Assembly: GCA_002701295.1 (NCBI GenBank)
Contig: NZUJ01000023.1
Location: forward strand, 1 to 45,397
Direction of reading: 5' to 3'
From: Ponticaulis sp.
Lineage (GTDB): Bacteria; Pseudomonadota; Alphaproteobacteria; Caulobacterales; Hyphomonadaceae
DNA length: 45,397 nucleotides
Positions 8,438 through 15,534 of the stretch are shown here, piece after piece; the stretch's first letter is position 1, and every line of letters begins with the position of its first letter. The translations under genes were made by a program, and so were the position numbers. The notes under the pieces are model-generated. The model made no database searches. It was not told where the DNA came from and was given only the letters and a program-made list of their open reading frames with translations.

Positions 8438-10564
8438 TCAGCCTTCTTCAGACTGCTCTTTTGCCTGACCGGTTTCCTGATCCACGACTTTCATGGACAG
8501 GCGGACTTTGCCGCGATCGTCAAAGCCGAGAAGCTTGACCCAGACAGTGTCGCCTTCTGAGACAACATCTTTCGGGTGCTTCACGCGCTCTTCAGCCATT
8601 TGAGAAACGTGAACCAGTCCGTCTTTTGGACCGAAGAAGTTCACGAACGCGCCGAAATCTTTGACGGCAACAACTTTGCCTTCATAGATCTCGCCCACTT
8701 CAGGCTCAGCCGTGATACCGGTGATCCACTTGCGAGCCGCATCGATAGAGGCTTTGTCGAGCGCTGAAAGCGTGACTTTACCATCGTCTTCGATGTTGAC
8801 CTTGGCGCCAGTGGTTTCGACGATCTCACGGATCACCTTACCGCCAGACCCAATGACTTCACGGATCTTGTCGACCGGGATCTGCATGCTTTCCATTTGT
8901 GGCGCATTCGCAGAAAGCTCGGTGCGGGCAGAGCCCAGAGCCTTGTTCATTTCGCCAAGGATGTGCATGCGGCCACCGCTTGCCTGAGCAAGCGCGGTTT
9001 TCATGATGTCCTCAGTGATACCAGCGATTTTGATGTCCATCTGAAGCGACGTAATACCAACTTCAGTACCCGCAACTTTGAAGTCCATGTCGCCGAGGTG
9101 GTCTTCGTCACCAAGAATGTCCGACAGAACAGCAACGCCGTCATCGTCCTTGATGAGACCCATGGCAATGCCAGACGCCGGGCGCTTGATCGGAACACCC
9201 GCATCCATGAGCGCGAGAGACGTACCGCAAACCGTCGCCATAGAAGACGAACCGTTGGATTCGGTGATCTCAGACAGAATCCGCATCACGTATGGGAAGT
9301 CTTCCTTGCTCGGCAGGATCGCTTTGGTTGCGCGCCATGCCAGCTTGCCGTGACCGATTTCACGACGACCCGGAGAACCCATGCGACCTGCTTCACCGAC
9401 AGAATATGGCGGGAAGTTGTAGTGAAGCATGAAGCTTTCTTTGTGAAGGCCATCAAGACCATCAATCATCTGCTCATCATCAGCCGTGCCGAGAGTTGCC
9501 ACACAGAGCGCCTGTGTTTCACCGCGGGTGAACAGAGCTGAACCGTGTGTACGCGGCAGAATGCCAACTTCAGAAACGATGTCGCGAACTTCGTCGAGCT
9601 TACGGCCATCAATCCGGACACCGGTTTTGATGATGTCGCCACGAACGACTTTCGCTTCAGCTTTCTTGAAGCAATCCTTGAACACCAGCGGGTCCATGCC
9701 CTCTGGCTTCTCTTCGGTTGCGACGAGCGCTTCGGCAGCTTTCTCACGCGCAGCGCCAACGGCTTCCTGGCGTTCGCCTTTTTCCTTGATCTTGTAAGCC
9801 GCAGACAGATCTGCGCCCACGAGGTCCTGGATTTGCTTGAGCTCTGCAGAATGATCCGGAGGATCGAAATCCCATGGCTCTTTCGCAGCACGCTCACCAA
9901 GGTCGATGACCAGATTGATCACGTCCTGGAAGCTTTTGTGGCCAGCCATAACAGCGCCGAGCATGATGTCTTCAGACAGCTCTTTCGCTTCGGATTCGAC
10001 CATCATGACCGCGTCTTGCGTACCCGCAACGACGAGGTCGAGATCAGTCTCTTCCATTTGCTGGATGGTTGGGTTGATGATGTACTCACCATCTTTATAG
10101 CCAACGCGTGCTGCGCCGATCGGACCCATGAATGGCAGGCCAGACAGTGTCAGTGCGGCAGACGCACCAACCATCGCAACAATGTCAGGATCATTTTCGC
10201 CGTCATATGACATGACAGTCAGAACAACCTGAACTTCGTTTTTGAAGCCTTCCACGAAGAGTGGACGGATTGGACGGTCAATCAGACGCGAAGTCAGTGT
10301 TTCTTTTTCGGTCGGGCGGCCTTCACGTTTGAAGAAGCCACCTGGAATACGGCCCGCTGCGGAATATTTTTCCTGATAGTTCACAGTAAGCGGGAAGAAG
10401 TCCTGGCCGGGTTTCGCCGATTTGGCGCCAACGACAGTGGCAAGGACAGAAGTTTCGCCGTAGGTGGCGAGCACCGCACCATCAGCCTGACGGGCAATGC
10501 GACCTGTCTCCAGAACCAGTGGGCGACCCGCCCATTCTGTAGACACAATGTGTTTATCGAACAT
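8438..10564 (-). CDS. pnp: Polyribonucleotide nucleotidyltransferase (PNPase)
   Basis: This 3'-5' phosphorolytic exoribonuclease takes part in mRNA decay and small-RNA turnover and is a degradosome component. The 708-residue protein has the full architecture: two RNase PH domains separated by an all-alpha domain, a KH domain with [10 protein letters not shown] (about residues 555-615) and an S1 domain starting near 622 ([17 protein letters not shown]). The second PH domain has the conserved [19 protein letters not shown] and MDIKIAG segments that carry the catalytic acids. ATG 10564 is preceded by GAGAG. It lies downstream of rpsO with a hairpin between them, the arrangement in which E. coli PNPase autoregulates; autoregulation here is inference. 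Confidence 0.98.
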
Positions 10565-10582
10565 ACATCTCTCTTTTCATAC

Positions 10583-10619
10583 GAAAAACCCGCCAGGAGC
10601 CGGATTGCTGCTGGCGGGT
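10583..10619 (-). terminator. Hairpin between rpsO and pnp
   Basis: On the minus strand a 9-bp perfect stem ACCCGCCAG/CTGGCGGGT with a 14-nt loop is followed by TTTTCG. It sits 12 nt after the rpsO stop and 19 nt before the pnp start. It should terminate part of the rpsO transcription. As in E. coli it may also be a target for RNase III processing upstream of pnp. Confidence 0.8.
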
Positions 10620-10630
10620 CTGGGCGGCCT

Positions 10631-10900
10631 CTAGCGGCGGATACCCAGTTCTTCAATGAGGGTCTTGTAACGGCCCTCGTCGCGGGACTTCACATAGTCC
10701 AGCAGTTTCCGGCGTGTTGCGACCATTTTCAGGAGGCCACGACGGGAGTGGTTGTCTTTTTTGTTGTCACGGAAGTGTTCTGTGAGGTTGTTGATGCGTT
10801 CCGTGAGGATCGCAACCTGAACTTCCGGAGAACCTGTATCGCCTTCAGTGCGGGCGAATTTTTTGATCAGCTCAGTTTTTTTGTCAGCCGTAATCGACAT
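10631..10900 (-). CDS. rpsO: 30S ribosomal protein S15
   Basis: S15 is a primary 16S rRNA-binding protein that nucleates the platform of the small subunit. The 89-residue product is exactly the family length and shows the conserved helices [33 protein letters not shown] and YLD-like LLDYVKSRD...[15 protein letters not shown] 10900 is preceded by AAGGT. The gene is normally directly downstream of truB, but here truB lies about 3.7 kb upstream with unrelated genes between. A GC-rich hairpin sits in its leader. Confidence 0.98.
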
Positions 10901-10918
10901 CGCAATACCTTGTGTTTT

Positions 10919-10937
10919 CGCCCGCTTTGGGTGGGCG
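10919..10937 (-). promoter_or_regulatory. Hairpin in the rpsO 5' leader
   Basis: On the minus strand, CGCCC (10937-10933) pairs with GGGCG (10923-10919) around a short loop. The hairpin ends 18 nt before the rpsO ATG and is followed by AAAACACAAGG with the ribosome binding site. Ribosomal protein S15 autoregulates through structured rpsO leaders in several bacterial lineages, including a Rhizobium example. Whether this hairpin is an S15 site is inference, since a single hairpin is not diagnostic. Confidence 0.35.
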
Positions 10938-11325
10938 TTATGTTAAAGCCAGATTGGCGTTGAAAAGGTCTCGTCTCAGCGTATTCAGCCAGGCCGGGAT
11001 GTCGTCCAGCAGGGCTAGAAAGATGAGGGGCAGAGACCCAAGGCGGCTCTATGACAGAAAATGGGGAAAAAGGGAAGGGTAGAGTTCGGGGAGAATTCAC
11101 AAGCGACAGCCCTGAGCGCGACCCATCGCGCACCCCGGGCTCGCCCCGTGGGAAGCGGGCGGTCAAAAAAATGAACACGCAGGCGCAAGACGCCCGGAAC
11201 CGAACGAAGTGAGTGGAGGAACAGCGTCAGAGCAGAAACACAACTCACCTGAACAGAGGAGTTTCTCGGCAAGCCTGATCGGCTAGACTCGCGCGAGTTG
11301 GTAAGGGCAATCCGGAGGGACGGAC
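10938..11325. other. Intergenic region without a convincing gene
   Basis: About 390 nt lie between rpsO (minus) and an exported-protein gene (plus). It must hold divergent promoters, but no convincing hexamer pair was found. It has purine-rich and GC-rich patches: a GGGGAAAAAGGGAAGGG run near 11062, a CCCCGGGCTCGCCCC segment near 11133, and a short repeat near 11203-11245 that recurs near 29.8 kb. Open frames on both strands have no start signals or recognisable domains. Confidence 0.6.
11203..11245 (+). repeat. Short dispersed repeat, copy A
   Basis: The core GAGGAACAGCGT (11216-11227), flanked by GAAGTGAGTG and GAGCAGAAAC, recurs inverted at 29801-29836, where GAGGAACAGCGT is again followed by GAGCA and a CAGAAAAC-like end. 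Both copies are intergenic. The shared part is short, so this is a tentative call. Confidence 0.4.
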
Positions 11326-11802
11326 ATGATCAGACTACTTCGAAAACTTGCGACCTGTGCAGCCTCTTTGTCGGCAGCAGTGCTTATTGCGCAAAGCGCC
11401 CATGCCGAGAACCTCAACGGAAAATGGTTCGGCGACTATACCTGCGGACAAGGTATCACGGCTGTGACACTGACTATCGAAGAGGTCGGCTCCGGCGAAG
11501 GGATGACCACCCTTCGGGGTGATTTCTCATTTTATGCCCATCCGGATAATCCTTGGGTGCCGAGCGGATCTTACGCCATGGCCGGTCATTTTGACCCCGA
11601 GACCAACGAAGTTCTGCTGAAAGGCACCCATTGGGACTTCCAGCCCTGGGGGTATGAAATGGTCGATCTTCTGGGGAGCTTTACCACCGATGACGACGGA
11701 GACATTCTCAGTGGCGACGTTTTCTTTCGTGAGCTGGAGACCCGGCTCGGCTGTACGACATTTCACCTCAGACGCATCGGCGCGGCCCAAAATCTGTTTT
11801 AG
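11326..11802 (+). CDS. Exported protein of unknown function
   Basis: This 158-residue protein was not recognised. It has a signal peptide of about 27 residues ending in AHA before ENLNGKWFGDYTCGQG. The mature part reads as repeated beta strands (AVTLTIEEV, TTLRGDFSFYA, YAMAGHFDPETNEVLLKGTHW), suggesting a small beta-barrel or lipocalin-like fold. One cysteine lies near the start and one near the end (LGCTTFHLRRIG), consistent with a single periplasmic disulfide. ATG 11326 has GGAGGGAC about 6 nt upstream. It stands alone upstream of a sensor kinase on the same strand with 119 nt between them; a functional link is only possible, not shown. Confidence 0.7.
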   Translation: MIRLLRKLATCAASLSAAVLIAQSAHAENLNGKWFGDYTCGQGITAVTLTIEEVGSGEGMTTLRGDFSFYAHPDNPWVPSGSYAMAGHFDPETNEVLLKGTHWDFQPWGYEMVDLLGSFTTDDDGDILSGDVFFRELETRLGCTTFHLRRIGAAQNLF

Positions 11803-11868
11803 TCCGTTCTACGTCTGAAGAAACGGCATCGGCTTATATACAGTTAATAAGGTGCTTTTATTCACCAA

Positions 11869-11897
11869 TTGGTAAGTTTTTCGTTCGGGAATATTAA
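11869..11897 (+). promoter_or_regulatory. Possible promoter for the sensor kinase
   Basis: TTGGTA (11869-11874) and TATTAA (11892-11897) are spaced 17 nt and lie 24 nt before the kinase ATG. Each hexamer matches four of six sigma-70 consensus bases, so the call is weak. Confidence 0.3.
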
Positions 11898-11921
11898 CAA
11901 TATTGCGCCTATCTCAAGTAT

Positions 11922-13694
11922 ATGAAGCGGCATCCCGAAAGATCACTGAAAATCTATCTCATCGGAATCGCCCTGATCGCGCTTCTGTCGACGCTCGGTC
12001 ACTTCCAGGTTCAACGCATTACAACAACTGATGATGTCTATGCGAGCATCATCAATCTGTCAGGTCGCCAGAGAATGCTGTCACAGCAGGTGACCTTGCG
12101 TGCGCAGACCGCTGTTCTACTCGACTCCGATGACGCTCGTGAAAAGCTTCAGACAAGTATTTCTGAAATGCGTGCGGCCCATGAGGCCCTCGCAAATAAC
12201 GCTCCGCATCCCGCCTTGCCGCGCCTTCCCCCGGAAAGCGCCGCTGTCGATCAGATCTTTTTTGGTGAGCCCGACCTGGACAATCAGGTCCGTCGGTTTC
12301 TGTCGAACGCCGACAGCATTCAGAACAATACAGGTGACCCGGCGGAGGCGCTCAGCACACTCCGGCTTTTGAGCGAGGGCACGCTTCTTCAAACACTTGA
12401 AAGTCTCGTTCAAACCTATGAAGGCATGGCCATCGCATCGGCTGAGAAGGCCTCCAGATTGGAGACACTTCTCTGGATCGCGACACTTATCCTTCTGGTC
12501 ATTGAATGGTTTGTGATCTTTCGTCCACAGCATGCGAGCATCACTGACGCCATCGCAACAATCAAAAAACAAAAGAACGATATGCAACAGCGTCAGACGC
12601 GTTTCGTTCTGGCGGCACAGACAGGTGCATTCGGCATCTGGGAACGTCCGGATACACGGTCTGACGCGATCGTCTTCACCGAAACCTTCACCAACCTGTT
12701 TGAAGATGACGGGTCGATCTTCCCGGTCAACTGTGAAGGGTTCCTCGAGCGCGTTCACCCCGAAGACCGGGCCTTCACACAGAAGCGATTGTTTCGAAAC
12801 AAACCTGCAGACGGCGAGCGGGTTATGCTCGAACACAGACTGTTGGCGACCGATGGCACCTATCGTTGGTTCTCCACGCTTGCCGAATATCGGCGTTCGG
12901 AAGAGACCGGCACCTACGGCATGATCGCGTGTACGACAGATATTCATGGCCAGAAGGCGGCAGAGCGCGCGACGTCAGAATTCATTTCAACGATGAATCA
13001 TGAACTTCGAACGCCACTCACCTCAATTCTGGGTGCGCTGCGGCTCCTGATGTCTGGCACTGTCCTGCAAAATCCCGAACAGAGCCGGCGCATGGTCGAT
13101 ATCGCCATCTCGAACGGAGAACGCCTGAACCGGCTGGTCAACGATATTCTGGACCTTGAACGCATTGATAGCGGACGTCTCCACGTCGATCTGAAGCCAC
13201 ACACGCTTTCAGACCTGGTCACCACCGCTGTGCAGGAAGCAGAGGGTTTTGCCAGCGCACACGACATTCATATTCGTTCGGATATAAAGTCTGCTGACGA
13301 TCTGGTTCTGATAGATAATTTGCGCTTTCAGCAGATCATGGCGAATCTCTTGTCGAACGCCATCAAATTTTCGGCTCCAGGCAGCGCAGTGAACGTGCGG
13401 GCCCAGTCGGTGGACGATGACATCAACATTTCTGTCTCTGACACCGGCATTGGCATGGATGAAGCCTTCCAGAAGCGCATGTTCGATCGATTTGCGCAGG
13501 CCGATCCGTCAGCCACCCGAAAAGTTGAAGGTTCCGGCCTCGGACTTGCCATTACCCGATCGCTGATCGAAGCCCTGAACGGTGATATCGACTGTGCTTC
13601 TACGCTTGGACAGGGAACAACCTTCACGGTCACGCTTCCCAGACGCACATCTGAGATCGAACAAACATCGGATTTGAGCCGAAATACGGCCTGA
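11922..13694 (+). CDS. Membrane sensor histidine kinase (PilJ-type sensor, PAS, HisKA, HATPase)
   Basis: The 590-residue inner-membrane kinase has TM1 at about 9-25. A periplasmic domain follows, opening with SIINLSGRQRMLSQQVTLRAQ, the signature of PilJ-type N-terminal domains related to the nitrate-sensor P-box. TM2 is at about 183-201, and a PAS domain spans about 227-347 (RVHPEDRAFTQKR, then RLLATDGTYRW). HisKA carries phospho-acceptor His360 in MNHELRTPL. The ATPase has an N box (ANLLSNAIKFS, near 473), G1 DTGIGM near 507, F box MFDRFAQAD and G2 GSGLGLAI near 537. All catalytic motifs are intact and no receiver domain is fused. No response regulator gene is adjacent, so it is an orphan kinase. 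The ligand is unknown. Confidence 0.9.
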   Translation: MKRHPERSLKIYLIGIALIALLSTLGHFQVQRITTTDDVYASIINLSGRQRMLSQQVTLRAQTAVLLDSDDAREKLQTSISEMRAAHEALANNAPHPALPRLPPESAAVDQIFFGEPDLDNQVRRFLSNADSIQNNTGDPAEALSTLRLLSEGTLLQTLESLVQTYEGMAIASAEKASRLETLLWIATLILLVIEWFVIFRPQHASITDAIATIKKQKNDMQQRQTRFVLAAQTGAFGIWERPDTRSDAIVFTETFTNLFEDDGSIFPVNCEGFLERVHPEDRAFTQKRLFRNKPADGERVMLEHRLLATDGTYRWFSTLAEYRRSEETGTYGMIACTTDIHGQKAAERATSEFISTMNHELRTPLTSILGALRLLMSGTVLQNPEQSRRMVDIAISNGERLNRLVNDILDLERIDSGRLHVDLKPHTLSDLVTTAVQEAEGFASAHDIHIRSDIKSADDLVLIDNLRFQQIMANLLSNAIKFSAPGSAVNVRAQSVDDDINISVSDTGIGMDEAFQKRMFDRFAQADPSATRKVEGSGLGLAITRSLIEALNGDIDCASTLGQGTTFTVTLPRRTSEIEQTSDLSRNTA

Positions 13695-13822
13695 TCATCC
13701 GCGATCACCTCTGAAAAATTATGTCCGCTTGATGCCGGCGCGCTAATGTGTGTCGGTTTTTCTTCTGTTTTTCAGACTATTAGGGCGTTTTCACGCGCTA
13801 AACATATTTTTTCATATTCATG

Positions 13823-13851
13823 TTGACAAACTTACACACCTTGCATATATT
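13823..13851 (+). promoter_or_regulatory. Near-consensus sigma-70 promoter for the YRG-repeat protein
   Basis: TTGACA (13823-13828) matches the -35 consensus exactly. TATATT (13846-13851) is a good -10, with 17-nt spacing. Transcription would start near 13858, leaving a leader of about 55 nt that contains the AAAGGAG ribosome binding site before ATG 13914. Confidence 0.8.
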
Positions 13852-13913
13852 AGACACATCAAACGAACACAGACAGCGGCGATACTTCCGCCGCCCCCGA
13901 AAGGAGACTGAAT

Positions 13914-14093
13914 ATGACCAAGCTTTTCTACCGCGGTTATGAACTGCGCACCGAAGCGAAAGCTGTAAAAGAAATCCGTCACGAAGACCTCGTCTACCGT
14001 GGCACTCATTACGACCCAGCGATCCGTCGCGCAGCGAATGAGAACAATGAAACAGCGTCTAAGCTGTTCTATCGCGGCGCCGCAGCTGCCTAA
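13914..14093 (+). CDS. DUF4278-like YRG-repeat microprotein
   Basis: This 59-residue cytoplasmic protein is not on any strand overlap with a larger gene. It contains three copies of a Y-R-G motif: KLFYRGYEL at 3-11, LVYRGTHYD at 26-34 and KLFYRGAAA at 50-58. This resembles the DUF4278 family, small proteins with KLxYRGxxY repeats known best from cyanobacteria; function is unknown. The ATG has an ideal ribosome binding site (AAAGGAG, 8 nt upstream). A near-consensus promoter precedes it and a strong terminator follows, so it is a monocistronic unit likely expressed at high level. Family naming is from motif memory and needs a profile search. Confidence 0.8.
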   Translation: MTKLFYRGYELRTEAKAVKEIRHEDLVYRGTHYDPAIRRAANENNETASKLFYRGAAAA

Positions 14094-14145
14094 GCGGCCC
14101 GACTTTACGGTCCGTCCCATCCCCCACCCCGATGACGGATCGAGG

Positions 14146-14179
14146 AAGACTGCCCTGCCAACAGGGCAGTCTTTTTTTT
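14146..14179 (+). terminator. Rho-independent terminator of the YRG-repeat gene
   Basis: A perfect 9-bp stem GACTGCCCT/AGGGCAGTC with a 6-nt loop is followed by eight T residues. It lies about 53 nt after the stop codon. Confidence 0.95.
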
Positions 14180-14194
14180 GCGTTGAATTCCGAT

Positions 14195-14491
14195 CTACTG
14201 GGAATTGCCACCGTCGAATGTCCGCGTTGGGTCTCCAACACTGTCCATGATCTGCTGAGCGTTCTGCTCAGCGGCTTCATCAAACTCTGCCCATTCTTCT
14301 TCAGTCGCGCAGATGCGTTGCGGCAGATTTGATCCGGTAGGACGTTCTGTTCTGCAGATCTGACCACTGGCCGCAGATCTTTGTGCGATCTCATCTGGAG
14401 ATACGCCGATATAGATATGGCCGTCCTGCACCGCGCATGCACCAATACACGCCAGAAGCGCGCATCCTGTTAGTATTCTGATTATGCTCAT
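14195..14491 (-). CDS. Small lipoprotein of unknown function
   Basis: The 98-residue product has a lipoprotein signal peptide with lipobox IGAC (Cys19). The mature part contains QICRTERPTGSNLPQRIC followed by ATEEEWAEFDE. This two-cysteine segment, with charged residues before PTGS and a trailing EEW, is a pattern I have seen in many short uncharacterised proteins of Alphaproteobacteria; no function is known. ATG 14491 has GGGGAG 7 nt upstream. It is a single gene, convergent with the YRG-repeat gene and upstream of nothing on its strand until rpsO, with its own promoter presumably in 14492-14580. Confidence 0.7.
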   Translation of the reverse strand: MSIIRILTGCALLACIGACAVQDGHIYIGVSPDEIAQRSAASGQICRTERPTGSNLPQRICATEEEWAEFDEAAEQNAQQIMDSVGDPTRTFDGGNSQ

Positions 14492-14580
14492 TATTTTTCT
14501 CCCCGTTCAATTTATGAACACGGTTAGTAAAACATGAGAATTGTCACACGCCTATTGAAAACAGGCCCGGCGCGGTGTCG

Positions 14581-15534
14581 TCAGAACCGGAACACACGCT
14601 GAGGCTGGAAGTGGCCTGCCCGGACTTCACCAATGGCAAGCGCCTGACCATTCGAAACAGCCAGAGCCAGACGGTCGTCTGACTCCTCCCCCTGCAACTT
14701 CGCACGGAGCTCCTGAAAGCCAGACATCTGATGTGGCAGAAGCACGATACTATTGCCATTGAGAAGCCGCCCGGCATGCTGAGCGCCAATATCAATTTGC
14801 GGAATGTCAGGCATGGAGGTCTCAACAGGCAGGAGTTCTGCCTTGCGCGCCTCAACATCATCGAGAGCTTCCAGTACATCCGGCGAGAGGGCGTTCTCAA
14901 GTTCGAAGTCACCCACGCGTGTTCTGCGAAGGAAGGCAACATGGCCTTCGGCACCAAGCGCAACCGCGAGATCACGAACCAGCGCCCGTATGTAGAATCC
15001 CTTCCCGCAGCTGACATGAATGATGGCGGTGTCTTCGCTTGACCCCTCATCAAGCTTGGCGTCAAAGAGCTCGACCCTGCGCGATGTCAGCTCGACCTCT
15101 TCGCCGTCGCGGGCCAGATCATACGCCCGCTCCCCATTCACTTTGATTGCGGAGAACTTTGGCGGCACCTGATCAAGTTCGCCAATCAGACTGGAGAGTT
15201 CCGCCCGGATATCTGCGAAACCTGGGCGAACATCCGATTCAGCAACAACCTCGCCTTCCTTGTCCTGCGTCGTCGTGGAAGCGCCCCATGCAATGTGAAA
15301 CGTATAGTCCTTGTCACAATCCATCGCGTAAGCGCTGGTTTTGGTAGCTTCACCCAGGGCAATTGGCAGGATCCCATCGGCCAGAGGATCGAGCGTCCCA
15401 CCGTGACCTGCCTTTTGCGCGTTATACAACCGCTTCACCAGACCAACTGCCTGGGTAGACGTCATGCCCACGGGTTTGTTGAAGTTGAGCCAGCCGTGTA
15501 CCGGGTCGCCCTTACGTTTGCGCTGTCGAGCCAA
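14581..15534 (-). CDS. truB: tRNA pseudouridine-55 synthase TruB
   Basis: TruB isomerises U55 in the T loop of tRNAs. The 317-residue protein shows the catalytic motif GGTLDPLADG with nucleophile Asp49, the early GWLNFNKPVGMTS segment, and the C-terminal KGFYIRALVRDLA and GHVAFLRRTRVG motifs. A PUA-like C-terminal domain follows from about 240. The start is TTG at 15534, giving the expected MARQRKRKGDPVHGW N-terminus, with AAAGG about 8 nt upstream. Normally it sits between rbfA and rpsO in one operon; here it is separated from both by several kilobases of unrelated genes. Confidence 0.95.
   Translation of the reverse strand: MARQRKRKGDPVHGWLNFNKPVGMTSTQAVGLVKRLYNAQKAGHGGTLDPLADGILPIALGEATKTSAYAMDCDKDYTFHIAWGASTTTQDKEGEVVAESDVRPGFADIRAELSSLIGELDQVPPKFSAIKVNGERAYDLARDGEEVELTSRRVELFDAKLDEGSSEDTAIIHVSCGKGFYIRALVRDLAVALGAEGHVAFLRRTRVGDFELENALSPDVLEALDDVEARKAELLPVETSMPDIPQIDIGAQHAGRLLNGNSIVLLPHQMSGFQELRAKLQGEESDDRLALAVSNGQALAIGEVRAGHFQPQRVFRF

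Follow-up and report, generated by a model that had tools for sequence, protein, structure and literature searches.

What controls a gene of 59 codons that carries some of the strongest expression signals in its surroundings, and what might its small product do? The gene lies in a 45,397-nucleotide stretch of a Ponticaulis sp. genome (contig NZUJ01000023.1, hereafter the window), where its transcription unit (13823–14179) is made up of the following features:

13823–13851, plus strand: promoter with conserved operator, TTGACAAACTTACACACCTTGCATATATT, by direct reading (11/12 match to sigma-70)
13824–13838, plus strand: candidate operator of the RHH-PII protein described below, TGACAAA-C-TTACACA, overlapping the −35 element and the spacer, by comparison
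13876–13894, plus strand: 5'-UTR hairpin GCGGCG-ATACTTC-CGCCGC, just 5' of the ribosome binding site, by RNA folding
13900–13906, plus strand: ribosome binding site AAAGGAG, read from the sequence
13914–14093, plus strand: YRG protein P0001, 59 aa, DUF4278, by its match to Pfam PF14105
14142–14177, plus strand: intrinsic terminator, read from the sequence (fold −25.3 kcal/mol)

Direct reading recovered every element that a preliminary description of this locus had named: TTGACA-N17-TATATT, AAAGGAG, the 59-residue open reading frame and a terminator with eight Ts. The −35 hexamer TTGACA (13823–13828) and the −10 hexamer TATATT (13846–13851) are 17 nt apart. The same description had called the signals unusually strong for the window, and indeed no other promoter between positions 10000 and 18000 scored above 9/12. 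The reading frame begins with ATG at 13914, and its stop codon ends at 14093. The 5'-UTR is only ~56 nt long, and its hairpin has a predicted energy of −12.9 kcal/mol (z = −2.2); several homologues, not all of them, are predicted to form a hairpin at a similar place with a different sequence. The terminator is predicted to form a hairpin of 16 bp closed by 4 loop nucleotides, with eight Ts at the end, its core stem AGACTGCCCTG-CCAA-CAGGGCAGTCT spanning 14147–14172. High expression is plausible, judging from the promoter, ribosome binding site and terminator and from the hairpin seen in several homologues.

Other kinds of control and origin were considered and rejected. An Rfam search of positions 13000–15000 found no match to a glutamine riboswitch (glnA-type or downstream-peptide aptamer), and the sole match to any structured RNA was a sub-threshold rsmX on the minus strand. 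By eye, the GG-N10-GC pattern of a sigma-54 promoter is absent from the spacer. A plasmid origin found no plasmid match; as for a phage origin, the frequency of the promoter motif in viral contigs fits chance, and no DUF4278-type YRG reading frame followed it there.

The gene sits in a pnp-rpsO...truB neighbourhood (window 8438–15534), the gene names being those that we presume from our reading of the translations. In several other genomes the YRG homologues adjoin truB or lie near rpsO/pnp, so that position and sequence both speak for orthology with those copies. Directly upstream (11922–13694) is a gene for a histidine kinase with PilJ, PAS and HATPase domains, and the two genes are neighbours elsewhere in Ponticaulis too. 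We rejected this kinase as a functional partner because it is absent from the YRG loci of the family's other genera, and we judge it a bystander.

The suggested likeness to the DUF4278 proteins of cyanobacteria was upheld by an HMM search, in which P0001 scored 26.8 bits against Pfam PF14105 (curated gathering cut-off 25.3) over residues 2–57 (model positions 1–56 of 57). The three YRG motifs reported earlier were found at residues 6–8, 28–30 and 53–55, and the Y-R-G columns are the most conserved among 16 homologues. An orthologue in another species of the genus is 61% identical; there were few changes among the close orthologues in the coding-constraint test. Structure prediction of the repeats, which the preliminary description had proposed, was run and gave only a low-confidence fold (AlphaFold pLDDT 60, pTM 0.16, shallow alignment), and we found no solved relative. 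The product is thus predicted to lack a stable fold. By analogy with cyanobacterial proteins, it is probably a small binding partner or peptide in nitrogen metabolism.

In cyanobacteria, DUF4278 forms the N-terminal, dispensable part of IF17, and its genes are under nitrogen control through NtcA and glutamine riboswitches (PMC6316151). The open-access literature yielded mentions of DUF4278 only for the control of cyanobacterial glutamine synthetase, and no description of a function outside cyanobacteria. Known members of DUF4278 include the N-terminal part of cyanobacterial IF17/GifB, Prochlorococcus PMM1846 and proteins of cyanophages; P0001 shares with cyanobacterial DUF4278 proteins its score above the curated cut-off, short length, YRG motifs and nitrogen-linked genomic context. 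Unlike the riboswitch-controlled DUF4278 genes, its gene has no glutamine riboswitch (Rfam negative). Unlike IF17, P0001 appears to have no room for a C-terminal, IF7-like part that binds glutamine synthetase; DUF4278 spans the 59 residues end to end.

The block TTGACAAA-S-TTACACA-Y is common to YRG homologues of the same genus, of the family's other genera and of a different family, with one copy having A at the centre. Most of the 17-nt spacer between the −35 and −10 hexamers is conserved among these homologues, and for this reason we regard the YRG promoter as more than a plain consensus promoter. Across 18 homologous sites, the first 16 nt carry 1.90 bits per column, compared with 0.37 and 0.41 in the flanks. 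Similarly, the window and a locus of another family (L037) agree at 86% over 29 promoter bases and at 30% in each flank. The strong half-site TTACACA occupies 13832–13838 and the second half of the candidate operator is degenerate; one subtype (L048, L052, L054) has a perfect inverted repeat, GTTACAC-N5-GTGTAAC.

The exact 15-base motif was scanned, without reference to any protein, in 61 relatives and in 385 genomes of the class; the class count leaves out the window genome's own two sites, which were already counted. Results showed 15 sites, 14 in the relatives and one more in the class genomes, and each of them (15/15) is followed ~55–110 nt downstream by a YRG reading frame of 56–60 aa, including copies that the DUF4278 model missed. 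A backwards control pattern had no match in the relatives and one in the class set. Conservation of the frame in related genomes, on which the preliminary description had staked its proposal, was thereby found in relatives and in a class genome. Of the two exact motifs in the window genome, one lies at the studied gene and the other, on contig C22, precedes the gene of a diverged YRG protein. A looser pattern, AASTTACACAY, also has two matches in the entire window genome, both at YRG genes.

Comparison of neighbours across the loci revealed that in seven genomes, which represent three families, an open reading frame of ~165 aa adjoins the YRG gene; it is divergent in six and downstream in tandem in the seventh (L038). 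At one of the seven loci (L036), a simple ORF finder called the PII part alone, and the comparison there covers that part. The encoded protein joins an N-terminal domain resembling a ribbon-helix-helix (RHH) to a complete PII protein, and we refer to it as RHH-PII. The last 112 residues make up an entire PII protein (P-II up to 97 bits), which aligned from end to end with GlnB of E. coli (1e-37). The window genome encodes RHH-PII on contig C97 (P-II domain 93.6 bits, cut-off 25), together with two ordinary PII genes, one of them adjoining glnA. RHH-PII keeps the T-loop, B-loop and C-loop motifs of PII proteins (GlnB/GlnK, PF00543), with the uridylylatable T-loop tyrosine; the T-loop YRGAEY, TGKIGDGKIF and RIRTGE are invariant or nearly so in 12 RHH-PII sequences. 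It differs from ordinary PII in its extra N-terminal RHH-like domain.

The N-terminal ~50 residues of RHH-PII are highly conserved in a ribbon-helix-helix-like pattern. The RHH_1 profile (PF01402) gave 14–15 bits, under its cut-off of 20.5, so we name the domain RHH-like rather than a member of PF01402. An AlphaFold monomer, a modest model, has helices at residues 16–28 and 35–52 and a low-confidence strand region at 1–13, and a sequence search found no solved relative. We infer the RHH-like assignment from the conserved pattern, this modest model and the TTACAC sites described below.

PII proteins are among the most widespread signal proteins, and the accepted view is that they work by contact with other proteins. 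Ordinary members exert their effect via such partners, and we know of none that bind DNA. The closest architectural parallel is NikR, a repressor that combines an RHH domain with an ACT/ferredoxin-like nickel-sensing domain: both have an RHH or RHH-like domain fused to a small oligomerising sensor of ferredoxin-like fold. RHH-PII differs from NikR in its PII sensor, for which the expected signals are 2-oxoglutarate and ATP/ADP instead of nickel, and in its operator. The fusion is apparently undescribed so far; we found no description of one in the open-access literature, a search that has subscription papers outside it and is weak evidence of novelty. If PII has indeed gained a DNA-binding domain, a sensor of nitrogen and energy would have become a transcription factor.

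Within the family, 18 RHH-PII genes were examined, and each has TTACACA upstream, on the opposite strand, usually 54–64 nt and at most ~155 nt before the coding region. In shuffled versions of these upstream regions, TTACACA appeared before a mean of 0.6 of 18 genes (maximum 5), and TGTGTAA, which is TTACACA on the opposite strand, is their commonest 7-mer. At three loci (L178–L180) one TTACACA site serves both the RHH-PII side and the divergent YRG promoter. RHH-PII is present in each of the ten relatives that have a motif-driven YRG gene (nine exact motifs and one one-base variant, TTGACC), and the exact motif occurs in none of the 43 relatives without RHH-PII (Fisher p = 5e-7, kinship ignored). 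These counts are drawn from sampled, sometimes incomplete assemblies, and the absence of YRG genes from the 43 relatives refers to the exact motif in all of them and to the protein profile in only some. In genus g4, RHH-PII occurs with no YRG gene beside it in the genome, and two of the four RHH-PII genomes of f54 have no recognisable YRG gene, so RHH-PII would have other or only autoregulatory roles there. The YRG promoter occurs only together with RHH-PII and the reverse does not hold, as expected if YRG is the target and RHH-PII the regulator. Where the two genes adjoin, they may simply travel together.

Further sites were seen at more distant loci. Two f54 genomes (G412, G488) have a near-perfect inverted repeat, TGTGTAA-S-TTATACA, just upstream of their YRG genes. 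The AT-rich f54 genomes of 1.3–1.4 Mb (L198, L199) have RHH-PII with upstream YRG genes, and G412 has two in tandem. The distant loci L202 (reverse-complement) and L203 each encode a PII-less relative of the RHH-like domain, closely preceded by TTACAC sites upstream of position 1500, that of L203 being the palindrome GTGTAATTACAC. The presence of TTACAC before these PII-less relatives suggests a family-wide operator.

Regulation of the YRG genes by RHH-PII is thus supported by comparative genomics, and RHH-PII is most likely the protein that binds the candidate operator. We consider it likely, from the comparison of sequences, that this monocistronic unit, which encodes a small YRG protein of DUF4278, has a dedicated operator inside its promoter, and that RHH-PII is the regulator. 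RHH-PII, TTACACA and the YRG gene would then form a small, testable set of regulator, operator and target.

The candidate operator shares bases with the −35 element and the spacer, a position that would block RNA polymerase, and repression is therefore our default reading. RHH-PII would repress its own gene and the YRG genes while sensing nitrogen and energy: its RHH-like N-terminus would bind TGACAAA-S-TTACACA and block the polymerase, and the same site before the RHH-PII gene would give autorepression. Since ATP/ADP and 2-oxoglutarate are ligands of PII domains, occupancy of the operator should depend on nitrogen and energy status. Once repression was lifted, the strong promoter would deliver a burst of YRG protein. 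We would expect the protein to rise in nitrogen excess, by analogy with the gif genes (PMC6316151) and pirA (PMC8092223) of Synechocystis, which are repressed by NtcA. The product, predicted to be unstructured, would then bind a protein of nitrogen metabolism, as do cyanobacterial small proteins under nitrogen control. PirA (Ssr0692) of Synechocystis, a small PII-binding protein under NtcA control (PMC8092223), is comparable in its very small size, its repression by a nitrogen regulator and its link with the PII network. Both pirA and the cyanobacterial DUF4278 genes differ from the YRG gene in being controlled by NtcA, whereas control here is apparently by RHH-PII. An independent nitrogen-type regulator in Alphaproteobacteria points to nitrogen control as the real business of DUF4278.

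How the YRG protein might act admits a doubtful but possible answer, which is compatible with control by RHH-PII because it concerns the protein and not its gene: the YRG repeats could mimic the PII T-loop and be competitors of PII for partners such as the ammonium channel, GlnD or NtrB. PII T-loops contain YRGAEY, YRG proteins repeat L-x-YRG-x-x-[Y/H] (FYRGAEH in L036), and PII and YRG fall within one proposed regulon. However, only the three-residue core is invariant and the next positions vary widely, so the resemblance may be chance. A fuller version, which we hold only tentatively, is that RHH-PII acts as a one-component regulator reading 2-oxoglutarate, ATP/ADP and possibly uridylylation directly through its PII domain, with the genes of disordered YRG peptides as main targets; by copying the T-loop, these peptides would retune the PII network. 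Such a PII circuit would be self-contained, with a DNA-binding arm of its own and decoys of the T-loop.

We think it improbable that the gene merely has a strong constitutive sigma-70 promoter for an abundant small protein, its spacer kept for optimal strength or by recent transfer of a cassette. The near-consensus hexamers, 17-nt spacing, stable terminator and 5' hairpin would suit such a promoter, but the spacer matches the −35 element in conservation, the exact motif stands at no other gene in more than 400 genomes, and TTACACA before the RHH-PII genes is on the opposite strand and outside any TTGACA-N17-TATAAT frame. The flanks and proteins, moreover, are too diverged for recent transfer.

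Similarly unlikely, in our judgment, is that both genes are controlled from TTACACA by some other transcription factor, making RHH-PII a co-regulated target only. The motif does lie upstream of both genes, and binding by RHH-PII is itself something that we infer. Against this, distant RHH-like relatives in unrelated genomes have TTACAC upstream, which fits the domain as reader of the site and autoregulation, and an N-terminal RHH-like domain on PII would have no other obvious use.

A structural or general-stress small protein is very improbable: the acidic DUF4278 paralogue on contig C33 has an EcfG-like element, GGAAC-N16/17-CGTA, but the window gene lacks it and has the RHH-PII-associated operator instead. 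The structural, stress or RNA-related role raised in the preliminary description is accordingly not favoured, since PII-type nitrogen control is what the conserved operator and its partner gene indicate.

The paralogue on C33 (L026, ~12325–12495, minus strand), the third DUF4278 gene of the window genome, and L028 encode an acidic DUF4278 protein beginning MTDLRYRG. Both lack the TTACACA operator, and the GGAAC-N16/17-CGTA upstream of them resembles alphaproteobacterial EcfG general-stress promoters. The candidate operator is likewise missing from another acidic paralogue, L039. The products of L039 and L023–L025 (family f125) are acidic and DUF4278-like, no RHH-PII was found in their genomes, and the pattern tried gave no EcfG-like site at L023–L025. 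Half-length DUF4278 proteins are carried by cyanophages, one of them annotated beside talC. This protein, from Cyanophage P-TIM40 (L222, 401–541), resembles the YRG proteins of Hyphomonadaceae (YRGVxYDxEQ...LAE...YRGI).
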